Of a stretch of 64,000 nt of DNA, positions 11,175 to 22,499 are shown piece by piece (position 1 is the stretch's first letter; every line of letters begins with the position of its first letter). The notes under the pieces are model-generated. The model had not been told where the DNA came from and ran no database searches. It saw only the letters and a list, made by a program, of their open reading frames with translations. The stretch lies in NCBI GenBank assembly GCA_024228575.1, contig JAAETH010000231.1, positions 1-64,000 on the forward strand, given 5' to 3'. The stretch is from Actinomycetes bacterium (GTDB lineage: Bacteria > Actinomycetota > Acidimicrobiia > Acidimicrobiales > Poriferisodalaceae). The translations under genes were made by a program, and so were the position numbers.

Positions 11175-11238
11175 TCTGACGGGCTCCGTTGCCGACGTGC
11201 ATTTCGACCAACCCGGCTCGATAGGCACAAAGACCCTC

Positions 11239-13341
11239 ATGACCAACGACGCAGTCGAACTGAGCTTCTTCAGCAACGCAATCCTGCGTCGCTGGTATCT
11301 GCCCGTGGGCTTGGCCTTCTTGGGCCTCGCCGTCGGGTTTGTCCTGCGGCCCGCACCGAGCGAACTCAACGAGGCGCAGACCAAGGTGTTGATCAGGCCC
11401 GTAACGGACGGCGTCCTGAACTCGGACTTCAGGGTCGACCAGCTCATCAACGAGGACACCGAGGCCGAGATCGCCGGTTCGGACCTCGTGGCTCAGAACG
11501 CCATCGAGGCACTCGGAGCCGAGGCACCCATCGGAATCGGAATCGACGACATCGACGACAATCTCAGCGTCAACGTTCGCACCGACTCTCAGATCGTCGT
11601 CTTCCGCTACACCGACGAGAATCCCGACGTGGCCGCTGCCCTTGTCGACGGCATCGCCAACGCATACCTCGCCGCCCGTTCGAACGCCGCCCTGGCCGAG
11701 CGCGACCGCCAGGCTGCCGTACTGGCTCAGGCCATGGCGGACAACACCCGCGATCTGACCCAGGCAAACCTCGTCATCGATACGGCCGATCGCGAAGCCA
11801 CCGACCGTGCCGAACTCGAGAAACGAATTGCTACTCTCGAGGAAGAGGTTGCCGTCGCCCAACTGAGCGGCGACGACAACACACCAACCGGCGATCCGAT
11901 CAGCCCCCTCATAGCCGAGCTCGCAGCCCTACCGGACACAGTCAGCGCCGCCCAACTCGCTTCTGCCCGCACCAGCCAGTCGTTGATAGGTGGCCAGATC
12001 GCCGACCTGCGACAAGCGCTCGTCGCCCTCTCGACCCTCGAGATCGACCCAGGTGTCGTTCTCGAGGCGGCGAGGCCAGGCTCCCCGGTGACGAGCAACG
12101 CCGGACCGTTGCTCATGGCGATCGCCGGTCTCACCGGCCTGCTGCTCGGCTTCGTATTGGCTGTTGCTTTCGAACGCTCCGCGGCGATTCGCTCGGCCAC
12201 GACACCTGGCGGATCTCCATACGCCGACCCGGCCCCAGGTGCCGGACCTCCTCCGGAAGGATTCCAACGCCAGCCGGGCGAGACCATCCACCTGACGCCC
12301 ACACCACAGTTCACCTTCGAGGAATCACCACCTGCCCCGACCAGCCCACCACCACCCGTTCCGACGCCGGACATGGCCATGGCCGGCACGGCCGCGGCTC
12401 CCCCATATGCGGTACCCGAACAAGCCCCGCAGACGGAGCAGGTCGGGTTCATCGATGCGGTCGCGACAACTCCGATCACAGAGTTCGAACCCGAGACATT
12501 CGATCTTGCGCCTGAACCCGAACCGCTCCCCGAACCACTCCCCGAACCGCTCGAGGTCGCGCAACCGCCCGAACCACTCCCCGAACCGCTCGAGGTCGCG
12601 CAACCGCCCGAACCACTCCCCGAGCCGCTCGAGGTCGCGCAACCGCCCGAACCGGCGGACGACCCCATCGCCGAGCAACCGGTGGCTCCTTTCCCGCCGG
12701 AGGCCTCGGCCGTTCCCGCCCATGCGACCGGTCTTCCAGTTCTCGCCGACATCCCCAAGATCTCGCGTTCGGCACAGGAGCCGATCGTCGCCACCGATCC
12801 CGGAAGCGAGCCAGCCACAGCGCTGCGCCGGCTTGCGGGCATCATCGTCAACGACTCGGCAGGGCTCACGACCCCGTCGGTGTTCGTCACGTCGGCGCGT
12901 CCCGAGGAGGGGCGGACCACAATCGCTGCCAACCTCGCCACCGCCATGAGGCTTGACGGGCACGAGGTCATCCTGGTCACCGATGCGCACGAAAGTGTCA
13001 TCGCCCCGGGCGTTCACGTTCTCCCTCCCGGGATGAGAGTCGGCCCCGACGACCAGTTCCCGAGTGATGAAAGGCTCGCAACCCTGCTCGAAGAAGCTCG
13101 CCAGCTGGTCGACATCGTGATCATCGATGGTCCGCCGACCCTGACCGATGCGGAGGCCATCCGGATCGCTGCGTTGTGCGACAGGGCAGTTCTGGTTGGC
13201 GTCAGCGGCCGTACGACAACAACGGACGTCACCGACTCGGCTCGCATCATCGGCGAGGCCGGCACAAGGGTCATCGGTCTCACAACCACCGTGCGTCCCT
13301 CCTGGATCACGAGGCGATTCGGAGACCGCTCCGTTTCCTGA
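11239..13341 (+). CDS. Wzz/chain-length-type membrane protein with degenerate BY-kinase-like domain
   Basis: 700-aa protein. A Wzz-type N-terminus has one membrane segment at about residues 19-36, a mainly acidic external region, and a second membrane segment near 288-311. A Pro/Glu-rich linker of about 200 residues follows, holding three copies of a 13-residue unit. The C-terminal 180 residues resemble the ATPase domain of bacterial tyrosine kinases (Wzc/CapB): VTSARPEEGRTTIAANLA, VILVTDAH and VDIVIIDGPP. The Walker A Lys is Arg, the A' motif lacks its second Asp, and there is no C-terminal Tyr cluster, so kinase activity is doubtful. The frame is open to 11125, but the ATG at 11239 gives the usual short cytoplasmic N-terminus. 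It opens the polysaccharide cluster. Confidence 0.8.
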   Translation: MTNDAVELSFFSNAILRRWYLPVGLAFLGLAVGFVLRPAPSELNEAQTKVLIRPVTDGVLNSDFRVDQLINEDTEAEIAGSDLVAQNAIEALGAEAPIGIGIDDIDDNLSVNVRTDSQIVVFRYTDENPDVAAALVDGIANAYLAARSNAALAERDRQAAVLAQAMADNTRDLTQANLVIDTADREATDRAELEKRIATLEEEVAVAQLSGDDNTPTGDPISPLIAELAALPDTVSAAQLASARTSQSLIGGQIADLRQALVALSTLEIDPGVVLEAARPGSPVTSNAGPLLMAIAGLTGLLLGFVLAVAFERSAAIRSATTPGGSPYADPAPGAGPPPEGFQRQPGETIHLTPTPQFTFEESPPAPTSPPPPVPTPDMAMAGTAAAPPYAVPEQAPQTEQVGFIDAVATTPITEFEPETFDLAPEPEPLPEPLPEPLEVAQPPEPLPEPLEVAQPPEPLPEPLEVAQPPEPADDPIAEQPVAPFPPEASAVPAHATGLPVLADIPKISRSAQEPIVATDPGSEPATALRRLAGIIVNDSAGLTTPSVFVTSARPEEGRTTIAANLATAMRLDGHEVILVTDAHESVIAPGVHVLPPGMRVGPDDQFPSDERLATLLEEARQLVDIVIIDGPPTLTDAEAIRIAALCDRAVLVGVSGRTTTTDVTDSARIIGEAGTRVIGLTTTVRPSWITRRFGDRSVS
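12541..12657 (+). repeat. Three tandem 39-bp units inside the chain-length gene
   Basis: Two near-perfect 39-bp copies (12541-12579, 12580-12618) and a third that diverges in its last bases (12619-12657) encode PEPLEVAQPPEPL units. A shorter PEPLPEPL run precedes them. The repeats are in frame, so copy-number changes would alter linker length without breaking the protein. Confidence 0.85.
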
Positions 13342-13459
13342 CCTCAACAAGATGGCAGCGTCACGAGCACGCCGGGCACAGGCCCGCATCTCGACCTCAC
13401 AAATGTTCACCAGGCGCCGATTGGAAGCCACTGTTCGACACGCCGAGGTCCGTCTTGCC

Positions 13460-13909
13460 ATGAAAATGCTCCTGGTCTCCTCTAATGGAGGACACTTGCA
13501 TCAGCTGCTCGCACTCCGCTCTTGGTGGGAACAACACGACCGAGTTTGGGCCACCGCCGAGAAACCAGACGCCGAGTCGCTGCTGGAGGGCGAACGAGTG
13601 GTGTGGTCGAACCACCCGACCACACGCAACGCGCCGAACATGGTCCGCAACTTCTTCCTCGCCAATCGGGTGATCTCGAACTTCAAACCCGACGTTGTCG
13701 TATCGACCGGTGCCGGTGTCGCTCCACCATTCTTTCTCGCAGCCAAGATGCGTAGGATCAGCACGGTGTACCTCGAGGTCTATGACCGTCTCGATTCGCG
13801 CACGATGGCCGGAAGCATGTGTTATCCAATGAGCGATCGATTCCTGTTGCAGTGGGAAGAGCAGCGCAGCCTCTATCCGCGGGGGATCGTCGTTGGGCGG
13901 GTCCTGTGA
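13460..13909 (+). CDS. PssD/Alg14-like glycosyltransferase membrane-anchor subunit
   Basis: 149-aa Alg14/PssD-type protein, the acceptor-side half of a split GT-B glycosyltransferase. It begins MKMLLVSSNGGHLHQLLAL, the family hallmark, and has PDVVVSTGAGVAPPFFLAAKM and TVYLEVYDRLDSRT. The ATG at 13460 is chosen because the family starts right before the first strand; the frame is open further upstream. Its stop overlaps the next start in TGATG, so the two halves are co-translated. The sugar transferred is unknown. Confidence 0.85.
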   Translation: MKMLLVSSNGGHLHQLLALRSWWEQHDRVWATAEKPDAESLLEGERVVWSNHPTTRNAPNMVRNFFLANRVISNFKPDVVVSTGAGVAPPFFLAAKMRRISTVYLEVYDRLDSRTMAGSMCYPMSDRFLLQWEEQRSLYPRGIVVGRVL

Positions 13910-14487
13910 TGTCGTCTCGTCCAGTTCAGACCAATGGAGTGGTCCCGATTCAGGCGACACCACCGTCGAAGCAGGTGACACGACGACTTCTGATGTCGCT
14001 CGGCACCGACCTGCACCCATTCGATCGCGCGATCGAATGGTTCGATACTTGGATCGAGAAACCCCGCACCCAGAAAGTCGAGGTGTTGGTGCAACGCGGC
14101 TACTCGAAGGCCGGCACCGCACCGGCGGTCGAATACCTCGCTTTCAACGACTTCGTTCGCGAGCTCGAGGAGGCCGACATCGTGGTGACACACGGTGGTC
14201 CCGGCTCCATCGTCGAGTGTCGCCGTGCCGGCAAGTTGCCGATCGTCATCCCGCGCGACCCCACACTCGGCGAACACATCGACAACCATCAACAGCTGTT
14301 CTGCGAGCGCATGGCAGCAGCAGGCCAGATCCTGGTCGCCCGCACCGAGTCCGATTTCCAAGAACTGCTCGATGACATGGTGTTGAATCCTCAGACCCTT
14401 CCGCCCCAGGACCAGCGCCACGTCGACACAACCGTCCGACGAGTCGGGCAAATCGTCGACCGGCTGGTGGCCGGTCGAAGGCGGTGA
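13909..14487 (+). CDS. PssE/Alg13-like glycosyltransferase catalytic subunit
   Basis: 192-aa protein with the C-terminal domain of family 28 glycosyltransferases, matching Alg13/PssE. The nucleotide-sugar-binding signature is ADIVVTHGGPGSIVECRRAGK followed by VIPRDPTLGEHIDNHQ. It pairs with the upstream PssD-like protein, which it overlaps, to make one functional enzyme adding a sugar to a lipid-linked chain. The N-terminus, about 30 residues longer than typical, has no recognisable feature. Confidence 0.85.
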   Translation: MSSRPVQTNGVVPIQATPPSKQVTRRLLMSLGTDLHPFDRAIEWFDTWIEKPRTQKVEVLVQRGYSKAGTAPAVEYLAFNDFVRELEEADIVVTHGGPGSIVECRRAGKLPIVIPRDPTLGEHIDNHQQLFCERMAAAGQILVARTESDFQELLDDMVLNPQTLPPQDQRHVDTTVRRVGQIVDRLVAGRRR

Positions 14488-15482
14488 TTCAGGTGGTTGC
14501 CGACACGTCGACAGCCACGAAGCCCTGGGGGGGCAAGGTGTCGAACGACCCCGTCCGGATCCTGTTCCTGGCCGGCCTCGGTCGATCGGGTTCGACCATC
14601 GTCGCCAACGTGTTGGGCCAACACTCAAACGCTGTGTCGATAGGCGAGCTCGTTCACCTGTGGGCCCGAGGTCTGGCCGACAACGAACTCTGCGGCTGCG
14701 CAAAACCGCTCCAGGAATGTGAATTCTGGACGAGGGTCGGCGAACTCGCCTTCGGCGGGTGGAGCCAGCTCGATCTCGACGAAGTCATGTCGTTGCAGGG
14801 CAGGGTCGATCGCAACCGCTACATACCCCTGATGGTCTTCCCCAAACTGCACCCCCGCAGGGCGCTCGACCAGCAGCGTTACACGGACATCTTGCTTCGG
14901 ATCTACCGCGCCATTCGAGATGTCAGCGGCGCCGAGGTGATCGTCGACTCGACAAAACACGTCTCGTACGCGTACCTGTTGTCTCAGATCGAGGGCATCG
15001 ACGTCAGCGTCGCCCACCTGGTCAGGGAGAGCCAGGGAGTTGCGTACAGCTGGGCCAAGACCATCGAACGCCCCGAGGTGACCAGCGGTCATGACGAGAT
15101 GCCTCGATACAGCCCGGCACGCACCAGCTCGAAGTGGCTCAGCTACAACCTCATGTTGCACGGGCTCAGGGCGGTCGGCACACCCCGACGACTCGTTCGC
15201 TACGAGGATGCCATGAGAGATCCCCGAGCCCAGATCGCACTGCTGATGGAGTTCGCAGGCCTCGTACCACTCGAGCTCGACCACATCGGCGACGGGTGGG
15301 TCGAGCTCACCGCAACCCACACCGTTGCGGGAAACCCCAGCAGGTTCAACCACGGTCGAGTCGACCTGAGGCTCGACCGAGCCTGGGTGGACATGATGGA
15401 GGAACGGGACAAGAGGATCGTCGGTGCTCTCACCTGGCCTCTGAGCACCGCCTACGGATACCGGAAACAAGACAACCGATGA
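14484..15482 (+). CDS. Sulfotransferase-family protein
   Basis: 332-aa PAPS-dependent sulfotransferase-like protein. The 5'-phosphosulfate loop is LAGLGRSGSTIVANVLG (residues 29-45) and a likely 3'-phosphate segment is around VIVDSTKHVSYAY and HLVRESQGVAYSW. Three Cys in NELCGCAKPLQEC are a common feature of this bacterial subgroup. The start is a GTG at 14484 overlapping the previous stop (GTGA), so it is translationally coupled to the glycosyltransferase. The context suggests it sulfates a sugar of the surface polysaccharide; the acceptor is unknown. Confidence 0.8.
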   Translation: MIQVVADTSTATKPWGGKVSNDPVRILFLAGLGRSGSTIVANVLGQHSNAVSIGELVHLWARGLADNELCGCAKPLQECEFWTRVGELAFGGWSQLDLDEVMSLQGRVDRNRYIPLMVFPKLHPRRALDQQRYTDILLRIYRAIRDVSGAEVIVDSTKHVSYAYLLSQIEGIDVSVAHLVRESQGVAYSWAKTIERPEVTSGHDEMPRYSPARTSSKWLSYNLMLHGLRAVGTPRRLVRYEDAMRDPRAQIALLMEFAGLVPLELDHIGDGWVELTATHTVAGNPSRFNHGRVDLRLDRAWVDMMEERDKRIVGALTWPLSTAYGYRKQDNR

Positions 15483-16405
15483 CAAACCAAACGATGCCCA
15501 CCAACATTGACGTCACAGTCATCGTCCCGACACGCGACCGGCCGGAGCTTCTGCGCAAGACGCTCGCTGCCATTCGCGACCAGGACTTTGAAGGTGTCGT
15601 CGAGTCACTCGTGGTGTTCGACCGAACCGAGGTCGACACATCTCTCGAGTCCGACAACCCGACCAGGCCCGTGCGCACCGTCTCAAACCAGCGCAAGCCC
15701 GGACTGGCCGGAGGCCGAAACACCGGGCTCGAGATGGCGGCGGGTCGTTTCATCGCATTCTGCGACGACGACGACACATGGGCGACCGACAAGCTGAGCC
15801 AGCAGATGAGGGTGCTCGTAGCAGGCCCGATGCGCATGGCCGTCGGGGTCATCGACGTTCACTTCGAGGGAACGACCACCCGACGCGCTCCGGACATGTC
15901 ACGCATCACGTTCACCGACCTCCTTCGCTCTCGTATCGTCGAGGCCCACCCGTCCTCGTTCGTGTTCGATCGAACCCTCATCGACGAGGTCGGTCTTGTC
16001 GACGAAGCCCTGCCGGGCAGCTACGCCGAGGACTACGAGTACCTGCTGCGCATTGCCCGCGTGACAGACATCGCCGTCGTGCCCAACGCCGTCGTCGACG
16101 TCTTGTGGCACACCGCCAGCTTCTTCGTTGAGAACTGGCAGACGCGTATCGATGCCCTCACCTACCTGCTCGCCGCCTATCCCGAGTTCGACGGCGACGG
16201 CATCGGTCGAGCTCGCATCGAAGGACAGATCGCGTTTGCCCATGCCGCCATCGGCAATCGAGCGGATGCTCGCCACTGGGCGAAACGTACGCTCAAGTCC
16301 TCATGGCGCGAGAAGAGGGCGTACCTGGCGTTGCTCGTCAGCACCGGTGTGGTTTCGGCGGACACCGTCGTGGCGCGCATCCAGCGGTTCGGTAGGGGAA
16401 TCTGA
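15479..16405 (+). CDS. Family 2 glycosyltransferase
   Basis: 308-aa GT-A glycosyltransferase. It has DVTVIVPTRDRPELLRKTL at residues 10-28, NTGLEMAAGRFIAFCDDDDTW with the metal-binding DXD around residues 95-98, and a C-terminal YAEDYEYLLRIAR acceptor/acid region. No membrane anchor is predicted. The ATG at 15479 overlaps the upstream stop as ATGA; the open frame extends earlier but only as an antisense-style shadow of the sulfotransferase gene. It would add one sugar residue in repeat-unit assembly; specificity cannot be told. Confidence 0.88.
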   Translation: MTNQTMPTNIDVTVIVPTRDRPELLRKTLAAIRDQDFEGVVESLVVFDRTEVDTSLESDNPTRPVRTVSNQRKPGLAGGRNTGLEMAAGRFIAFCDDDDTWATDKLSQQMRVLVAGPMRMAVGVIDVHFEGTTTRRAPDMSRITFTDLLRSRIVEAHPSSFVFDRTLIDEVGLVDEALPGSYAEDYEYLLRIARVTDIAVVPNAVVDVLWHTASFFVENWQTRIDALTYLLAAYPEFDGDGIGRARIEGQIAFAHAAIGNRADARHWAKRTLKSSWREKRAYLALLVSTGVVSADTVVARIQRFGRGI

Positions 16406-16407
16406 CC

Positions 16408-17718
16408 ATGGCGCCACCTCGCGCCAAGTCGCGGTCGTGGCCACTGACCCTGCTGATCGTCGGCATGCCGTTGTGGTGGGCCCTGGGCCTCAGCGGGCTG
16501 ATCTGGATGATCGCCGCCCTGCCCATGGCCATCATCACCCTTGGGAGAACACCCATTCGCGCTCCTCGCGGGTTTGGTCTCTACATGCTCTTTCTCACCT
16601 GGGTGTTCGTTTCGATGAGCCAGGCAGAAGGACTGCGGTTCATCAGCGTCGGCTACCGGCTGGTCTTGTACATAGCGACCGCCGTTGTCTTCTTGTACGT
16701 GTACAACCTGTCCCACGAGGAACTACCGCGCACCCGCGTCCTGAAGCTCGCCGTCGTCTACATGATCTACTCCGTTGCAGGTGGCTATCTGGCTCTGATC
16801 CTGCACGACCTCGAGTTCACCTCGGTGGTCGAACGATTGCTTCCGGCCGCCGTGCGATCGAACGAGTACGCGAGCAGCCTGGTTCACCCGCGGTTCGCCC
16901 AAAACCACGAGTTTCTGGGATTCCCGCTCTATCGACCGACCGTACCCTTCACATTCACCAACGAGTGGGGCTCTGGAGTTGCGCTTCTGACTCCGCTGTT
17001 CATCGCCGCATTTGCGGGCCTTGATCGCAGGTGGCGCTCGGCAATCGTCGTAACCGGTTTCGCAGCCCTGATCCCGATCGTCATCTCGGTCAACCGGGGC
17101 CTGTGGCTCACCTTGCTGATTGCCGTCGGATACGGCGCAGTCATGCTGGCCAGCCGCGGCGACATCAAGTACTTCAAGGGCCTCGTCGGCCTCGGCGCCG
17201 CCATCGCCGTAGTGCTGCTGCTGACTCCACTGGGAGGGCTGGTGTCGGGCCGCATCGCCAACGGCCATTCCGACGAAGGCCGCATGACCCTGTACGGCCA
17301 GGTGATCGACCAGATACAGGACTCGCCGTGGGTCGGCTATGGCGCACCCCGAGTCAACGAGGAACGGCCGAACCTCCCAGCGGTCGGCACTCACGGACAG
17401 TTCTGGACCGTTCTCTACAGCCACGGCATCCCCGGGGCCCTGCTGTATGTTTCGTTCTCGCTCGGTCTGGCCTGGCGCACCCTGAAGGGCCAGGATCGGG
17501 TCGGCGTCTGGATACACGTCACAACTGCGCTCGTACCGATCCTCATGTGGTTCTACGAGCTGATCAATCAACCGATCTTCCTCGTGTTCGTAGCCGGAGC
17601 GATCGCTCTTCGCGGAGTCCCGCCCGCGTCGACACCATCCACATCAGAAGCAGTGGCCCCATCCTCAATTCCTCAACCGCATCAGCCGACGGGAACCCAC
17701 AAGCCCGCAAGGACCTGA
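16408..17718 (+). CDS. O-antigen ligase/polymerase (Wzy-like) membrane protein
   Basis: 436-aa polytopic protein with about ten to twelve hydrophobic segments. It has the Wzy_C-type periplasmic loop: NRGLWLTLLIAVGYG, then GRMTLYGQVIDQIQDSPWVGYG and THGQFWTVLYSHGIPGALLY. That pattern marks O-antigen ligase/polymerase proteins, which join glycan repeat units on the outer face of the membrane. It begins two bases after the glycosyltransferase stop. Polymerase is more likely than ligase in a Gram-positive setting with a flippase and chain-length protein; this is inference. Confidence 0.83.
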   Translation: MAPPRAKSRSWPLTLLIVGMPLWWALGLSGLIWMIAALPMAIITLGRTPIRAPRGFGLYMLFLTWVFVSMSQAEGLRFISVGYRLVLYIATAVVFLYVYNLSHEELPRTRVLKLAVVYMIYSVAGGYLALILHDLEFTSVVERLLPAAVRSNEYASSLVHPRFAQNHEFLGFPLYRPTVPFTFTNEWGSGVALLTPLFIAAFAGLDRRWRSAIVVTGFAALIPIVISVNRGLWLTLLIAVGYGAVMLASRGDIKYFKGLVGLGAAIAVVLLLTPLGGLVSGRIANGHSDEGRMTLYGQVIDQIQDSPWVGYGAPRVNEERPNLPAVGTHGQFWTVLYSHGIPGALLYVSFSLGLAWRTLKGQDRVGVWIHVTTALVPILMWFYELINQPIFLVFVAGAIALRGVPPASTPSTSEAVAPSSIPQPHQPTGTHKPART

Positions 17719-17721
17719 ACG

Positions 17722-19920
17722 TTGATCAGCACCGTGAGTGAACAACAGATCCAGAACCAGAACCTCTCGTGGATTGTCGACATCCTGCGTGGTGGCGACG
17801 GCACCGTTGTGACCTCGCGTGGGCACTGCCCACAGGGCCATGTCGAACTGGAACGGTTCACGGTGTATCCGAGCGCCTCCCAACCCCGCATGCTCATCAG
17901 CGGAGCCTCCCGAGTGGTCCGAACTGCCGTGCTCCGGCGCGCGGCATCACGAAACGAGGCTTCTTTTCTCAAGGCACTCACCCGACAGGTCAGCGCCAGC
18001 GCAGCACGCCTGGGTATCGACCACCTCGCTCTCGGGCCCGATCTCGTGCTGAGCGCACCAGTCGATGAGGCGGCCGAACGCAGCGAGTATCGCGAGCCCC
18101 GCATCTTGACCGAGTACCTCGAGACCGCGATCGACGACCACGAGTTGTGCATCGCTGTCAGCCTCGGCCCACTGCGCCCGAACCGCAAGCCGGTCCTTCA
18201 ACTGATGGATCGCAGCGGAGCTCTCGTCGCCTACGCAAAGATCGGATGGGACTCATCGACCCGCGAGATGGTCGAGTCCGAAGCGGCGACCCTCGCGAAC
18301 CTCGACGCGCATGTGTTCCGCGATCTGACGATCCCAAAGCTGCTGCACTTCAGCCGTTGGCGCGACCTGTCGGTTCTCATCACAGCACCTCTGACCAACG
18401 ACGGCCCCTCTGCTCCCTCTTCAAGCCTGGTTCTCAGTGGCCTGGTCGAGGTCGCATCGTTGACACCTCCCGAACCGCACGCCCTCGCCGATGCCCCTTG
18501 GACCCGGCGTCAGATTGCCAGAGCCGAGGCGCTCGGCGGTCCCGGAGCGGAGCTTGTCGAAACGATTGAACGCTGCGTTTCGGCCCATGGCGACCGAGTC
18601 GTCGCCTTTGGAACATCGCACGGCGACTGGTCTCCGTGGAACATGCGCCGCCTCGGACGACGCCTCGGCGTTTGGGATTGGGAACGTTCGTCGACCGACG
18701 CTCCCATCGGCCTCGACCTCGTGCACTATCACTTCCAGCGCGCATTCCACGAGAGCGGACGCTCGGTCGCCGGCGGGCTCGATGTCGTTCGACAGGTCGT
18801 CCCATCAGAACTCGCAGAACTCGGTATCGACGGTGACGAGCACGACCTCATCACCGTGCTCTACATGATCGAACTCGCGCTCAGATACTCCGAGTCGTCT
18901 CTCATCAGCGATGCAGAACTGACCCGCACCCGCAAGGAATTGACCGTGGAGTTGCATCACCACATCCCAAGGGTTGGCGGCTCCACAGAAGACCGTCGCA
19001 GCCAACGGCACGATCCGCCGACACCCGACAAGGGTCGCCTATTCACCCGCCGAATGCTCGGTGGTTCGGGTGTACCCACCCCTGTGCGCAACGCCGTCAG
19101 GAACACTGCCAAGAGCTACGGACGCGCCACCTCGAAGTACCGCATGCTGCCAACCGCCTACATCATCGGCGCCCAGCGCTGCGGTACAACATCGATCTTC
19201 AGGTATCTCACCCAACACCGCGCTGTAACGGGCCCGATGCTCGAGAAGGGTGTCCACTTCTTCGACACCAACTACACGGGTGACCTCGACTGGTACCGGT
19301 CACACTTCCCTACAGAGCGACGCGCACGACTGACCCGCCAGATCAATGGCTGTGACCTGACCGTGCTCGAGGCGTCGCCCTACTACTTGTTCCATCCTCT
19401 CGTTCCCGAGCGGATCCACGCTGCGACACCCGAGGCACGATTCATCGTGCTGGTTCGCGATCCTGTGGAGCGGGCCCTCTCCCATCACAACCACGAGGCG
19501 AAGCGCGGATTCGAGCCCGAGGACTTCGCCACCGCCCTAGACCTCGAACCGAGCCGATTGGCGGGTGAGGTGGAGCGCATGATCGCTGACCCCCTGTATG
19601 TCAGCTACGCCCACCAGCACCACACCTACACCGCCAGAGGCCACTACATCGAGCAGATCGACCGCTACGACATCCTGTTCGGCAGAACGAACGTGAAGGT
19701 GGTCCGCACGACCGACCTCGAGACGAACCCAGCCGAGGTCGTCGACGACATTCTCGGGTTCCTCGGGGTGCCGCTCATGGGCGACATCTCGTTTCAGCGC
19801 TACAACGTCAGACGGTACGCATCGATGGACGACGAGATCCGCGACCGATTGACCGCCGAATTCGCCGAGTCCGATACCGCCCTTGCAGAGCGGCTGGGCA
19901 GAACCGACCTCTGGGGCTGA
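17722..19920 (+). CDS. Phosphotransferase (APH-fold) - sulfotransferase fusion protein
   Basis: 732-aa two-domain protein. Residues about 100-420 look like an APH/choline-kinase fold: Lys173 in VAYAKIGW, Glu185 or 187 in VESEAATL, catalytic HGDWSPWN (300-307) and metal Asp319 in VWDWERS, all present. Residues about 475-732 are a heparan-type sulfotransferase: P-loop GAQRCGTTSIF (483-493), EKGVHFFD, ASPYYLFHP and 3'-phosphate motif VRDPVERALSHH. The frame is continuous. It could phosphorylate and sulfate the same glycan or a lipid-linked precursor; that pairing is inference. It begins four bases after the Wzy-like gene. Confidence 0.78.
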   Translation: MISTVSEQQIQNQNLSWIVDILRGGDGTVVTSRGHCPQGHVELERFTVYPSASQPRMLISGASRVVRTAVLRRAASRNEASFLKALTRQVSASAARLGIDHLALGPDLVLSAPVDEAAERSEYREPRILTEYLETAIDDHELCIAVSLGPLRPNRKPVLQLMDRSGALVAYAKIGWDSSTREMVESEAATLANLDAHVFRDLTIPKLLHFSRWRDLSVLITAPLTNDGPSAPSSSLVLSGLVEVASLTPPEPHALADAPWTRRQIARAEALGGPGAELVETIERCVSAHGDRVVAFGTSHGDWSPWNMRRLGRRLGVWDWERSSTDAPIGLDLVHYHFQRAFHESGRSVAGGLDVVRQVVPSELAELGIDGDEHDLITVLYMIELALRYSESSLISDAELTRTRKELTVELHHHIPRVGGSTEDRRSQRHDPPTPDKGRLFTRRMLGGSGVPTPVRNAVRNTAKSYGRATSKYRMLPTAYIIGAQRCGTTSIFRYLTQHRAVTGPMLEKGVHFFDTNYTGDLDWYRSHFPTERRARLTRQINGCDLTVLEASPYYLFHPLVPERIHAATPEARFIVLVRDPVERALSHHNHEAKRGFEPEDFATALDLEPSRLAGEVERMIADPLYVSYAHQHHTYTARGHYIEQIDRYDILFGRTNVKVVRTTDLETNPAEVVDDILGFLGVPLMGDISFQRYNVRRYASMDDEIRDRLTAEFAESDTALAERLGRTDLWG

Positions 19921-19921
19921 G

Positions 19922-21424
19922 GTGCTCGAGACAACGGCCACGCGTCCCGAGGACGCGTCGGAACAGTCCTCCCTGGCGCGCTCCGGGCTGATCGCGTTCG
20001 CTGGATCGGTCGTGAACGGGTTGGCCGCGTTCCTGGTCATCGTCGCCATCACGAACGTTCTCGACGACAAGACCTCGAGCGGCTTGGTCTTCACCGCCAT
20101 CGCCCTGTTCAACATCGTGTTTGCGGTGGCTGCTCTGGGTGCCGACGTGGGTCTGGTCCGCTTCACGGCCCAGAACCGTTCATCGGCCGTCGCGTTGCTG
20201 AAGACGGCCGCCATCCCTGCCCTGATGTCGAGCTGTCTGATGGCCGCTGCGATCGCAGTAGCCAGGCATCCGATCGCGAACATATTGTCCGCCAACGACT
20301 CGGACACGCTCGCTCAGATCCTCCTCGGCATGACTCCGTTTGTGCCTTTGGCGACTCTGGCTACCGTCATCCTGGCCGGCACGCGCGGACTGGGAACCAT
20401 GACACCGACCGCCCTCGCAGATCGAATCGGGAAACCCATCTCCCAACTCGCTCTGGTCGTATTCGTTTCACTGCTCGGCGCCGGACCCGCTGGCATCGGT
20501 CTCGCCTGGTCGGTCTCGTTCGCGGTCTCGTTTGCCCTGGCTGTCTGGTGGTTCTGGCACCTCACATCCGGTCGAGAATCCGATTTGGCCGTCACGCGCG
20601 AGGAGTACTGGGACTTCACAGCACCCCAGGCAGCCACGAACGTGCTGTACGTGTTGTTGCGCTGGGCCGATGTCTTGCTCGTTGCAGCATTGGCGGGCGA
20701 AGGCCCAGCCGCCATCTATACAGCAGTCTCGAGGCTCCTGATCGCCGGGAACTTCGTCAACGGCGCCATTGTCCAAGCCATCTCGCCACTCGTCAGCAAG
20801 GCGCTCGGCGACAACAACAGACGTGGCGCCGACGATCTGCTGAAGACCGGTACCGCCTGGCTGGTCGCCGCTGTGTGGCCCGGCTATTTGATCTTGGCCC
20901 TCGTCGGGGGCCCGCTGCTCGTCACCCTCTTCGGGGATGGATACTCGACCGGTGCAACAGCGCTGACCGTGTTGAGCTTCGCGATGATGGTCGCCTCCGG
21001 ATCGGGTCCCATCGAAGCTGTGCTGCTGATGGACGGGGGATCGAGGTTGTCCCTCATCAACAACCTCGCCGCGGTCACCGTGATGTTGACGGTCGACGCG
21101 TTGTTGATCCCCGAGCTCGGGGTCCGGGGCGCGGCCATCGGCTGGGGCGCAGGGCTCATGATCACGAACGTGGTCCCGTTGATCCAGGTGCACCGACGGC
21201 TCGGCATCAGCCCATTTGGAAGGGCACACCTCGTCGCCTCCGCCGTCGGCCTGGCATGTGTGGGTGGTCCCGCAGCACTCCTGCGCCTGACGGGAGCGGC
21301 AACCCTCCTCTCGGTCCTGGGCGTCGCCGTGGTCGGTTACGCCCTTCACTTGGCCCTCCTGTCGAGGTTCTCGACAATCCTGAAGCTCGATCAGTTGGTG
21401 TCGGCGGTCAAGTCAAGAGGCTGA
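19922..21424 (+). CDS. Polysaccharide flippase (Wzx/MATE-like, MOP superfamily)
   Basis: About 500-aa integral membrane protein with roughly twelve to fourteen hydrophobic helices, in the style of Wzx/MurJ flippases that move undecaprenyl-linked repeat units across the membrane. Early segment GLIAFAGSVVNGLAAFLVIV and later GNFVNGAIVQAISPLVSKALGD are typical of the superfamily. The start is uncertain: a GTG at 19922 sits two bases after the upstream stop, while an ATG at 19883 would overlap the sulfotransferase end by 38 nt. I chose the GTG. It completes the set of assembly genes. Confidence 0.83.
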   Translation: MLETTATRPEDASEQSSLARSGLIAFAGSVVNGLAAFLVIVAITNVLDDKTSSGLVFTAIALFNIVFAVAALGADVGLVRFTAQNRSSAVALLKTAAIPALMSSCLMAAAIAVARHPIANILSANDSDTLAQILLGMTPFVPLATLATVILAGTRGLGTMTPTALADRIGKPISQLALVVFVSLLGAGPAGIGLAWSVSFAVSFALAVWWFWHLTSGRESDLAVTREEYWDFTAPQAATNVLYVLLRWADVLLVAALAGEGPAAIYTAVSRLLIAGNFVNGAIVQAISPLVSKALGDNNRRGADDLLKTGTAWLVAAVWPGYLILALVGGPLLVTLFGDGYSTGATALTVLSFAMMVASGSGPIEAVLLMDGGSRLSLINNLAAVTVMLTVDALLIPELGVRGAAIGWGAGLMITNVVPLIQVHRRLGISPFGRAHLVASAVGLACVGGPAALLRLTGAATLLSVLGVAVVGYALHLALLSRFSTILKLDQLVSAVKSRG

Positions 21425-21488: not shown

Positions 21489-22499
21489 TCAGTTGAACCA
21501 GGGATCCTGGCTGATCGTCACCCACGCTTCGAGGGCATCGCCAGACGTGTCGAGACGCCAATCGGGACCACCGAGCGTGCGGAAATCCTTGTCGAAGTAC
21601 ACGAAGGCATCAATCTCGGGGAACCGCGTGCGCAAGGTCGCCGGAATCGAGAGGATCCAATCGGCTTTTGCCCCCGGTTCTGCTTCGGCCACACCCGTCT
21701 CGCCAACGATGATCGGAAGCCCGCGGGGCACCGCCCAGTCGTAGAAGTCTGCGAATATCGGCTCGAGGCCGATCCAATCCGGAGAGGTGGTTGTGGTCGC
21801 CCAGTTGTATCCGTCGGCGCAGAGCCAGTCGACCCGGTCGTCCCCGGGGTACCAAGGCATCGGGTCGCCCCCGTTCCAGAACAACGCCTCGTTTGGGCAC
21901 CATACGAACTCGGCGTTGGTCGCGCCTTCCTCGTCGAACAGTCCGCGGATGTGATTCCACGCCGCTACATAGTCGGCCCCAGAGTGAACCCACTCCCTGC
22001 GGCGCTGGCCATCCATTTCCCACAGCCAACGCATCAGTACCGGTTCACCGAGATCGCGTACCGCTCTCGCTTGGGTGCGGATCCACTCGTCGTGCCGGCC
22101 GTTCCAGATCTCGATCGTGTCGGTGCCGTTCCACGAGATCATCAGGATACGGCCTCCCTCGAGAAGCATGAGGTCGTCCGGGGTCGGGATCGCCTTGTCC
22201 CACGAGTGGAAAACATGAGCAATGTCGTACTGGCGTCCCGCCAATTCCTCGAGAAACGGCCACCGCGATTCGCGCTCGCGTTGGGTCAAGCCAGTCGATA
22301 TCCCGAGCAACGCACCCTCACCCAACCGGTCGGAGATTGGAACAGCGGGCAGACCCGAGGCCGTTGTCTGAGGAATCGATACCACCGGCTCTGTCACGAC
22401 CGAAAGAGACGTGGTGACCCGGCCTGATGAACCGGTCGAGCCGGTCGAACACGCCGCGAGGACCATCAGGAAGGCCGACACGGCCAATCGAGCGCGCAT
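21489..22499 (-). CDS. GH26-like secreted glycoside hydrolase lipoprotein
   Basis: 336-aa lipoprotein. The signal peptide ends in a lipobox LAAC with Cys17, then a Ser/Thr-rich linker of about 40 residues, then a (beta/alpha)8 domain like family 26 mannanases. Likely catalytic residues are Glu161 (VLMRWLWEMDG, acid/base) and Glu267 (LPIIVGETGVAE, nucleophile), with typical aromatic subsite residues around WCPNEALFWNG and WLCADGYNW. It faces the polysaccharide cluster from the opposite strand, 64 bases away. A role in trimming or releasing the glycan made there is attractive but unproved. Confidence 0.78.
   Translation of the reverse strand: MRARLAVSAFLMVLAACSTGSTGSSGRVTTSLSVVTEPVVSIPQTTASGLPAVPISDRLGEGALLGISTGLTQRERESRWPFLEELAGRQYDIAHVFHSWDKAIPTPDDLMLLEGGRILMISWNGTDTIEIWNGRHDEWIRTQARAVRDLGEPVLMRWLWEMDGQRRREWVHSGADYVAAWNHIRGLFDEEGATNAEFVWCPNEALFWNGGDPMPWYPGDDRVDWLCADGYNWATTTTSPDWIGLEPIFADFYDWAVPRGLPIIVGETGVAEAEPGAKADWILSIPATLRTRFPEIDAFVYFDKDFRTLGGPDWRLDTSGDALEAWVTISQDPWFN

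Follow-up and report, generated by a model that had tools for sequence, protein, structure and literature searches.

The window, that is, the whole stretch of 64,000 nucleotides that was analyzed, from an actinomycete of the family Poriferisodalaceae, encodes a single protein in which an N-terminal cap, a kinase domain of the APH fold and a PAPS-type sulfotransferase follow one another. Computation established the folds of the two halves, the intactness of the kinase and PAPS motifs, the conservation of the fusion and the location of the gene in an exopolysaccharide cluster. We consider it somewhat probable that the protein is bifunctional and adds both phosphate and sulfate to a lipid-linked repeat unit before export, in a Wzx/Wzy pathway of sulfated exopolysaccharide synthesis. 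The gene and the features of its product are as follows.

17722-19920, forward strand: fused kinase-sulfotransferase gene, an uninterrupted open frame of 732 amino acids plus stop
17755-18096, forward strand: N-terminal cap, residues about 12-125, made up in the AlphaFold model of a helix, three strands, two helices and a further strand, with conserved P50, P55 and R56
18097-18972, forward strand: APH-fold kinase domain, residues about 126-417, from Foldseek and from Pfam APH matches in 16 of 48 members
18238-18240, forward strand: Lys173, the ATP-binding lysine, invariant in 62 homologues
18619-18642, forward strand: HGDWSPWN catalytic loop, residues 300-307, with H300, D302 and N307 invariant and G301 in 61 of 62 homologues
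18676-18684, forward strand: Asp319-Trp-Glu321, metal-binding motif, with D319 and E321 invariant in 62 homologues
18973-19101, forward strand: junction between the domains, residues about 418-460, from the full-length model, 53-74% identical among fused homologues
19102-19917, forward strand: PAPS sulfotransferase domain, residues about 461-732, from Pfam, phmmer against the PDB and Foldseek (3RNL and 1VKJ)
19168-19200, forward strand: 5'-phosphosulfate-binding loop GAQRCGTTSIF, residues 483-493, with G483, R486 and G488 invariant in 49 homologues
19243-19266, forward strand: EKGVHFFD, residues 508-515, with Gly510 in place of the catalytic Glu90 of 3-OST-1 in the alignment to 1VKJ
19453-19482, forward strand: VRDPVERALS, 3'-phosphate-binding motif, residues 578-587, with R579, P581, R584 and S587 in 48 of the 48 homologues that cover the site

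The frame, for which TTG at 17722 and GTG at 17734 are the candidate start codons, begins just after the end of the upstream Wzy-like gene (17718) and closes with the stop codon at 19918-19920. Upon re-reading, K173, HGDWSPWN, D319, GAQRCGTTSIF, EKGVHFFD and VRDPVERALS were all found at the positions listed, as described in the initial annotation together with the single open frame; the kinase-then-sulfotransferase order claimed there agrees with Pfam, Foldseek and the models of both halves. A membrane segment is absent (the hydropathy over 19 residues reaches at most 1.39), so both ATP and PAPS would be accessible to the protein. In the full-length AlphaFold model (pTM 0.62), both halves fold and residues 423-451 of the junction, with confidence below 50, are disordered, and the model therefore does not define how the two domains are positioned with respect to each other. 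The latter part of the junction resembles the N-terminus of stand-alone sulfotransferase homologues.

The first half of the protein has a kinase-like APH fold with intact catalytic motifs. Its AlphaFold model, obtained with 48 sequences (pLDDT 90.5, pTM 0.90), shows the two-lobed APH architecture, and the top Foldseek matches in the PDB are fructosamine-3-kinase, APH(2'') and APH(3') (E about 4e-7), together with homoserine kinase, with a probability of 1.00 for the fructosamine-3-kinase and APH matches; mycobacterial maltokinase is found further down the list. The Pfam APH profile (PF01636) gives the window protein 19.3 bits, a weak match below the cut-off of 23.2, and matches 16 of 48 relatives at E<=0.1 (best E 3e-10). 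No NCBIfam family covers the kinase half. A PDB profile search with the kinase alignment produced weak matches to choline kinase (E 0.013) and WbdD (E 0.1), so the fold assignment depends on the model. A kinase-like fold was found, then, in the first 440 residues, the part on whose kinase nature the initial annotation had staked its reading. Across the 62 homologues, which are roughly 25-30% identical, the invariant columns comprise K173, E187, H300, D302, N307, D319, E321, G330, D332 and R388. The protein thus shares the fold and all catalytic motifs with APH/choline kinase-like kinases (PF01636; fructosamine-3-kinase, APH(2''), homoserine kinase) and differs from them in falling below the Pfam cut-off, in its additional N-terminal cap and in its exopolysaccharide context.

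The second half is matched above cut-off by two Pfam families, Sulfotransfer_3 (PF13469, E 1.3e-11) and Sulfotransfer_1 (PF00685, E 9.3e-11), with bit scores of 45.6 and 42.0. The best PDB match by phmmer is 3RNL (E 2.3e-22), and the closest proteins, both by sequence and by model, are 3RNL and the heparan 3-O-sulfotransferases. The fold, the phosphosulfate-binding loop and the 3'-phosphate motif are common to this half, 3RNL and the heparan sulfate 3-O- and N-sulfotransferases, whereas the catalytic glutamate of the heparan 3-OST/NDST subgroup (Glu184 in 3-OST-3, Glu90 in 3-OST-1; PMC8341778) is absent. In the alignment to 3-OST-1 (1VKJ), ENEVHFFD lies over EKGVHFFD, and the column of Gly510 holds glycine in 46 and serine in 3 of 49 homologues. 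The neighboring positions are largely kept among the same homologues (Lys509 in 48, His512 in 43, Asp515 in 43), and the 3-OST-3 equivalents of His512 and Asp515, His186 and Asp189, are essential (PMC8341778). Because glutamate is replaced by glycine, the equivalents of essential 3-OST-3 residues, His512 among them, are present, and the bases of sulfotransferases are either His or Glu according to a review (PMC11625862), a histidine is likely to act as the base in this half. The label "heparan-type" given in the initial annotation holds for the fold and the PAPS motifs and fails for the catalytic glutamate; a heparan substrate is not implied.

The fused gene belongs to a compact cluster (11197-21424) flanked by leucine/isoleucine biosynthesis genes, and is accompanied by the following genes.

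11197-13341, forward strand: Wzc-like chain-length/tyrosine-kinase protein, from sub-threshold NCBIfam matches to exopolysaccharide tyrosine kinases
13421-13909, forward strand: PssD/Alg14-like glycosyltransferase subunit, from Pfam Alg14 (on a longer frame from 13148) and the gene call
13993-14487, forward strand: PssE-like glycosyltransferase subunit, from Pfam Glyco_tran_28_C and NCBIfam PssE
14484-15482, forward strand: second sulfotransferase (ST2), from Pfam PF13469
15494-16405, forward strand: GT2 glycosyltransferase, from Pfam PF00535
16408-17718, forward strand: Wzy-like polymerase (O-antigen ligase family), from Pfam PF04932
19883-21424, forward strand: Wzx-like flippase, from Pfam PF01943 and PF13440, true start possibly further in
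21489-22499, reverse strand: GH26-like protein, from a weak match to Pfam PF02156, with homologues recurring beside the pair in other loci

This Wzx/Wzy exopolysaccharide context bears out the surface-glycan setting suggested in the initial annotation. A kinase and a sulfotransferase beside Wzy and Wzx are found in the window, in about 50 loci and in Actinoplanes couchii, and in most loci the pair has homologues of Wzc, PssD/E, ST2, GT2, Wzy and Wzx as neighbors. The GH26-like gene is convergent with the window cluster. ST2 is 83% identical in locus L038 and is widely kept beside the kinase/sulfotransferase pair. In A. couchii, Phytohabitans and Dactylosporangium, the PAPS-synthesis gene adjoins the cluster; in the window's genome it is not beside the cluster and lies on another contig, where a pair of neighboring APS-kinase domains, each in its own frame (G000:C72:63463-64535), is the likely PAPS source. 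In Phytohabitans, Dactylosporangium, A. couchii and Asanoa (L041, L042, L044 and G704:C56), the sole strong APS-kinase match of the genome is located in the cluster or no more than several kb from it, and these bacteria may therefore produce PAPS chiefly for this polymer.

The identical domain order was detected in five genomes of three genera, all from the window's family, at 49-73% identity to the window protein. Besides the window, the unbroken fused frame recurs in four genomes, where the initial annotation had proposed to look for it: G664 (73%; its contig is that of L038, Acidimicrobiales bacterium HKST-UBA10), G666 (58%), G668 (49%) and G672 (54%; incomplete, as the gene runs off the contig end). 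The protein is missing from most of the other genomes of the family that were sampled. Between the window and L038, dN is 0.17-0.26 and dS 1.06-1.80 across the cap, kinase and sulfotransferase, the latter values being near saturation, so that only the direction (dN well below dS) is meaningful. In both the kinase and the sulfotransferase domain trees, the fused proteins group together in a single clade (support 1.0 and 0.999), and a single fusion event would therefore fit both trees; the fusion is also considered an old one. Two trivial explanations were considered and rejected: an assembly error, which the initial annotation had contemplated should the homologues always be two genes, is ruled out by the fusion being common to five genomes, and a chance open frame by the 49-73% identity of homologues together with dN well below dS.

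Elsewhere in Actinomycetota, the halves are encoded by two genes of a conserved Wzx/Wzy exopolysaccharide cluster, which are usually direct neighbors with the kinase preceding the sulfotransferase. Among 60 loci, a set that includes a few loci from near-identical genomes, the two genes are adjacent in this order in 36, on one strand and apart in 8, and fused in 1 (L038); in the other 15, a same-strand sulfotransferase of this type was not found in the stretch examined, which counts against the reading favored below. At the order level (298 genomes), the sulfotransferase occurs in 37 of 37 genomes with the kinase versus 11 of 261 without it (Fisher p 9e-38, with genomes treated as independent despite their relatedness); in the phylum sample, the kinase is present in 24 of 396 genomes. 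The mirror-tree correlation between kinase and sulfotransferase (r 0.87) is not counted alone as evidence, because shared species history accounts for much of it. The two genes overlap in A. couchii, from the start of the sulfotransferase to the stop of the kinase. In locus L065 (4831-6990; G077:C66), kinase and sulfotransferase are in frame with a single TAG stop between them, one step short of fusion. Two kinase copies are found in G345, in one cluster (L146, G345:C5), and in G548, in two separate clusters (L144 and L145). Kinase relatives in four loci from Geodermatophilaceae metagenome-assembled genomes (L053, L058, L059 and L062), near which no genes of the window cluster were detected, may belong to another pathway.

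The genetics of what is likely the two-gene version is available from Actinoplanes missouriensis. In a study published in 2026, the wps-1 cluster of this species was described to encode WpsK (Wzz), WpsJ (Wzy), WpsI (protein kinase-like, IPR011009), WpsH (heparan-type sulfotransferase), WpsG (Wzx), WpsF (methyltransferase), WpsE (GH26) and WpsB (a second sulfotransferase), with AMIS_7390 (ATP sulfurylase/APS kinase) adjoining it; that the polymer is sulfated is the prediction of the authors (PMC13390465). The gene order in the congener A. couchii, Wzz-Wzy-kinase-sulfotransferase-Wzx-methyltransferase-GH26, preceded by an APS-kinase match at a distance of about 180 bases from Wzz (on L044), corresponds to that of wps-1 plus AMIS_7390, and it is by this gene order that WpsI and WpsH are considered the likely separate-gene equivalents of the fused halves. 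As in the window, a kinase-fold protein and a heparan-type sulfotransferase are encoded between Wzy and Wzx, and a GH26 protein and a second sulfotransferase accompany them. The systems differ in that WpsI and WpsH are two proteins rather than one, the PAPS-synthesis gene of wps-1 is next door rather than on another contig, and the window cluster has PssD/PssE, while a methyltransferase was not found in it. Deletion of wpsH or wpsI results in squashed sporangia, as do deletions of wpsG, wpsJ, wpsK or the whole cluster; deletion of AMIS_7390 is likewise severe, whereas loss of wpsB causes only a mild defect (PMC13390465). Since the wpsH and wpsI knockouts resemble loss of the flippase or polymerase, these data suggest that the predicted phosphate and sulfate modifications are needed for export or polymerization and are not an optional decoration. 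Sequestration of the undecaprenyl carrier, raised by the wps-1 authors (PMC13390465), is another possible reason for the phenotype.

Under the reading that we favor, the fused enzyme would be cytoplasmic and serve the Wzx/Wzy-dependent synthesis of a sulfated exopolysaccharide. With ATP as donor of the gamma-phosphate, the kinase half would phosphorylate a hydroxyl group on the repeat unit while this is being built on undecaprenyl; the sulfotransferase half would transfer sulfate from PAPS to the same unit, and the modified unit would then be flipped by Wzx and polymerized by Wzy. Modification in the cytoplasm before flipping is the simplest scheme because the protein has no membrane segment, uses ATP and PAPS as donors and is encoded between the Wzy and Wzx genes. 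We infer catalytic activity, a lipid-linked glycan as acceptor and the order of the steps, and co-location and fusion suggest that both halves share this acceptor. Against this reading stand the absence of the standard catalytic glutamate from the sulfotransferase and the fact that the top fold matches of the kinase are small-molecule kinases, which leaves room for a soluble substrate. The kinase half might accordingly act on a free sugar or a soluble pathway precursor, like N-acetylhexosamine 1-kinase, maltokinase or glucosamine kinase, with the fusion tying only expression or localization. We regard this as fairly unlikely, although the nearest folds include maltokinase 4U94 (405 columns aligned, together with the cap region), a cap precedes the APH-like kinase in both mycobacterial maltokinase and actinobacterial glucosamine kinase (PMC4306142, PMC6520443), and fusion or complex formation of such a kinase with a pathway partner, comparable to the window fusion, is known for TreS-Mak (PMC4306142). 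However, the kinase fits 4U94 poorly overall (TM 0.33), the constant partner is a sulfotransferase rather than a nucleotidyltransferase or a sugar-supply gene, and the published knockout phenotype is the same as that of core assembly genes. The glucosamine-kinase signature Q-x2-RE-x2-YA-x3-LP-x-W (PMC6520443) was not found in the window protein by eye, and no Pfam match to a maltokinase cap or glucosamine-kinase profile was obtained at E<=0.1.

Three further explanations were considered. Both halves could be active in one pathway and yet modify different sugars or work at different stages, with phosphate serving, for instance, as a chain-end or export signal and sulfate being placed on another residue. 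The flexible linker does not force a shared site, and 11 genomes of the order have this sulfotransferase type without the kinase. The bifunctional E. coli O9a protein WbdD provides a precedent: as a kinase and methyltransferase it caps the O9a chains, combining in one protein a glycan kinase and a second group transferase acting on a polyprenol-linked polysaccharide (PMC3482155). WbdD, however, has a methyltransferase instead of a sulfotransferase, the opposite domain order and a chain-terminating role, and such capping belongs to ABC-transporter pathways, whereas the window cluster is of the Wzx/Wzy type; we hold this division of labor to be improbable. A regulatory protein kinase that targets assembly proteins would agree with the annotation of WpsI as protein kinase-like and with the fold superfamily shared with protein kinases, yet it appears quite improbable, given that IPR011009 denotes this superfamily and not a function, and that the motifs and best fold matches are those of the APH small-molecule class. 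Finally, the initial annotation had offered a kinase half for acceptor binding only. That role is unlikely because the catalytic residues (K173, E187, H300, D302, N307, D319, E321) are invariant in 62 homologues, and a dead kinase that binds the acceptor for the sulfotransferase is very improbable, as binding alone would not demand invariant Lys, Glu, HGD, Asn and DxE.

With respect to novelty, the initial annotation had noted no described enzyme with this domain order. A kinase-sulfotransferase fusion was indeed not found in Pfam, NCBIfam or the open-access literature, which is weak evidence of absence, but the pair of functions has been published as the adjacent genes wpsI and wpsH (PMC13390465). 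The fusion may be new as a gene architecture, the pairing of the functions in separate genes being already on record, and it probably does no more than fix a partnership otherwise made by two coupled genes. Sulfated polysaccharides are thought to be rare among bacteria other than cyanobacteria (PMC13390465), and no description of a phosphorylation step in the assembly of such polysaccharides was found in the papers retrieved. We advance only tentatively, as a proposal that may well prove wrong, that a single enzyme, and an actinobacterial family of gene pairs behind it, modifies one and the same lipid-linked repeat unit with both phosphate and sulfate, that phosphorylation is required in the assembly of sulfated polysaccharide in bacteria and that the sulfotransferase uses a base other than glutamate. 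The fused protein offers one soluble target for probing both activities and their order, and the fusion itself is strong evidence that a kinase otherwise labeled "phosphotransferase" or "protein kinase" works with a sulfotransferase in an exopolysaccharide pathway that is widespread among actinobacteria.
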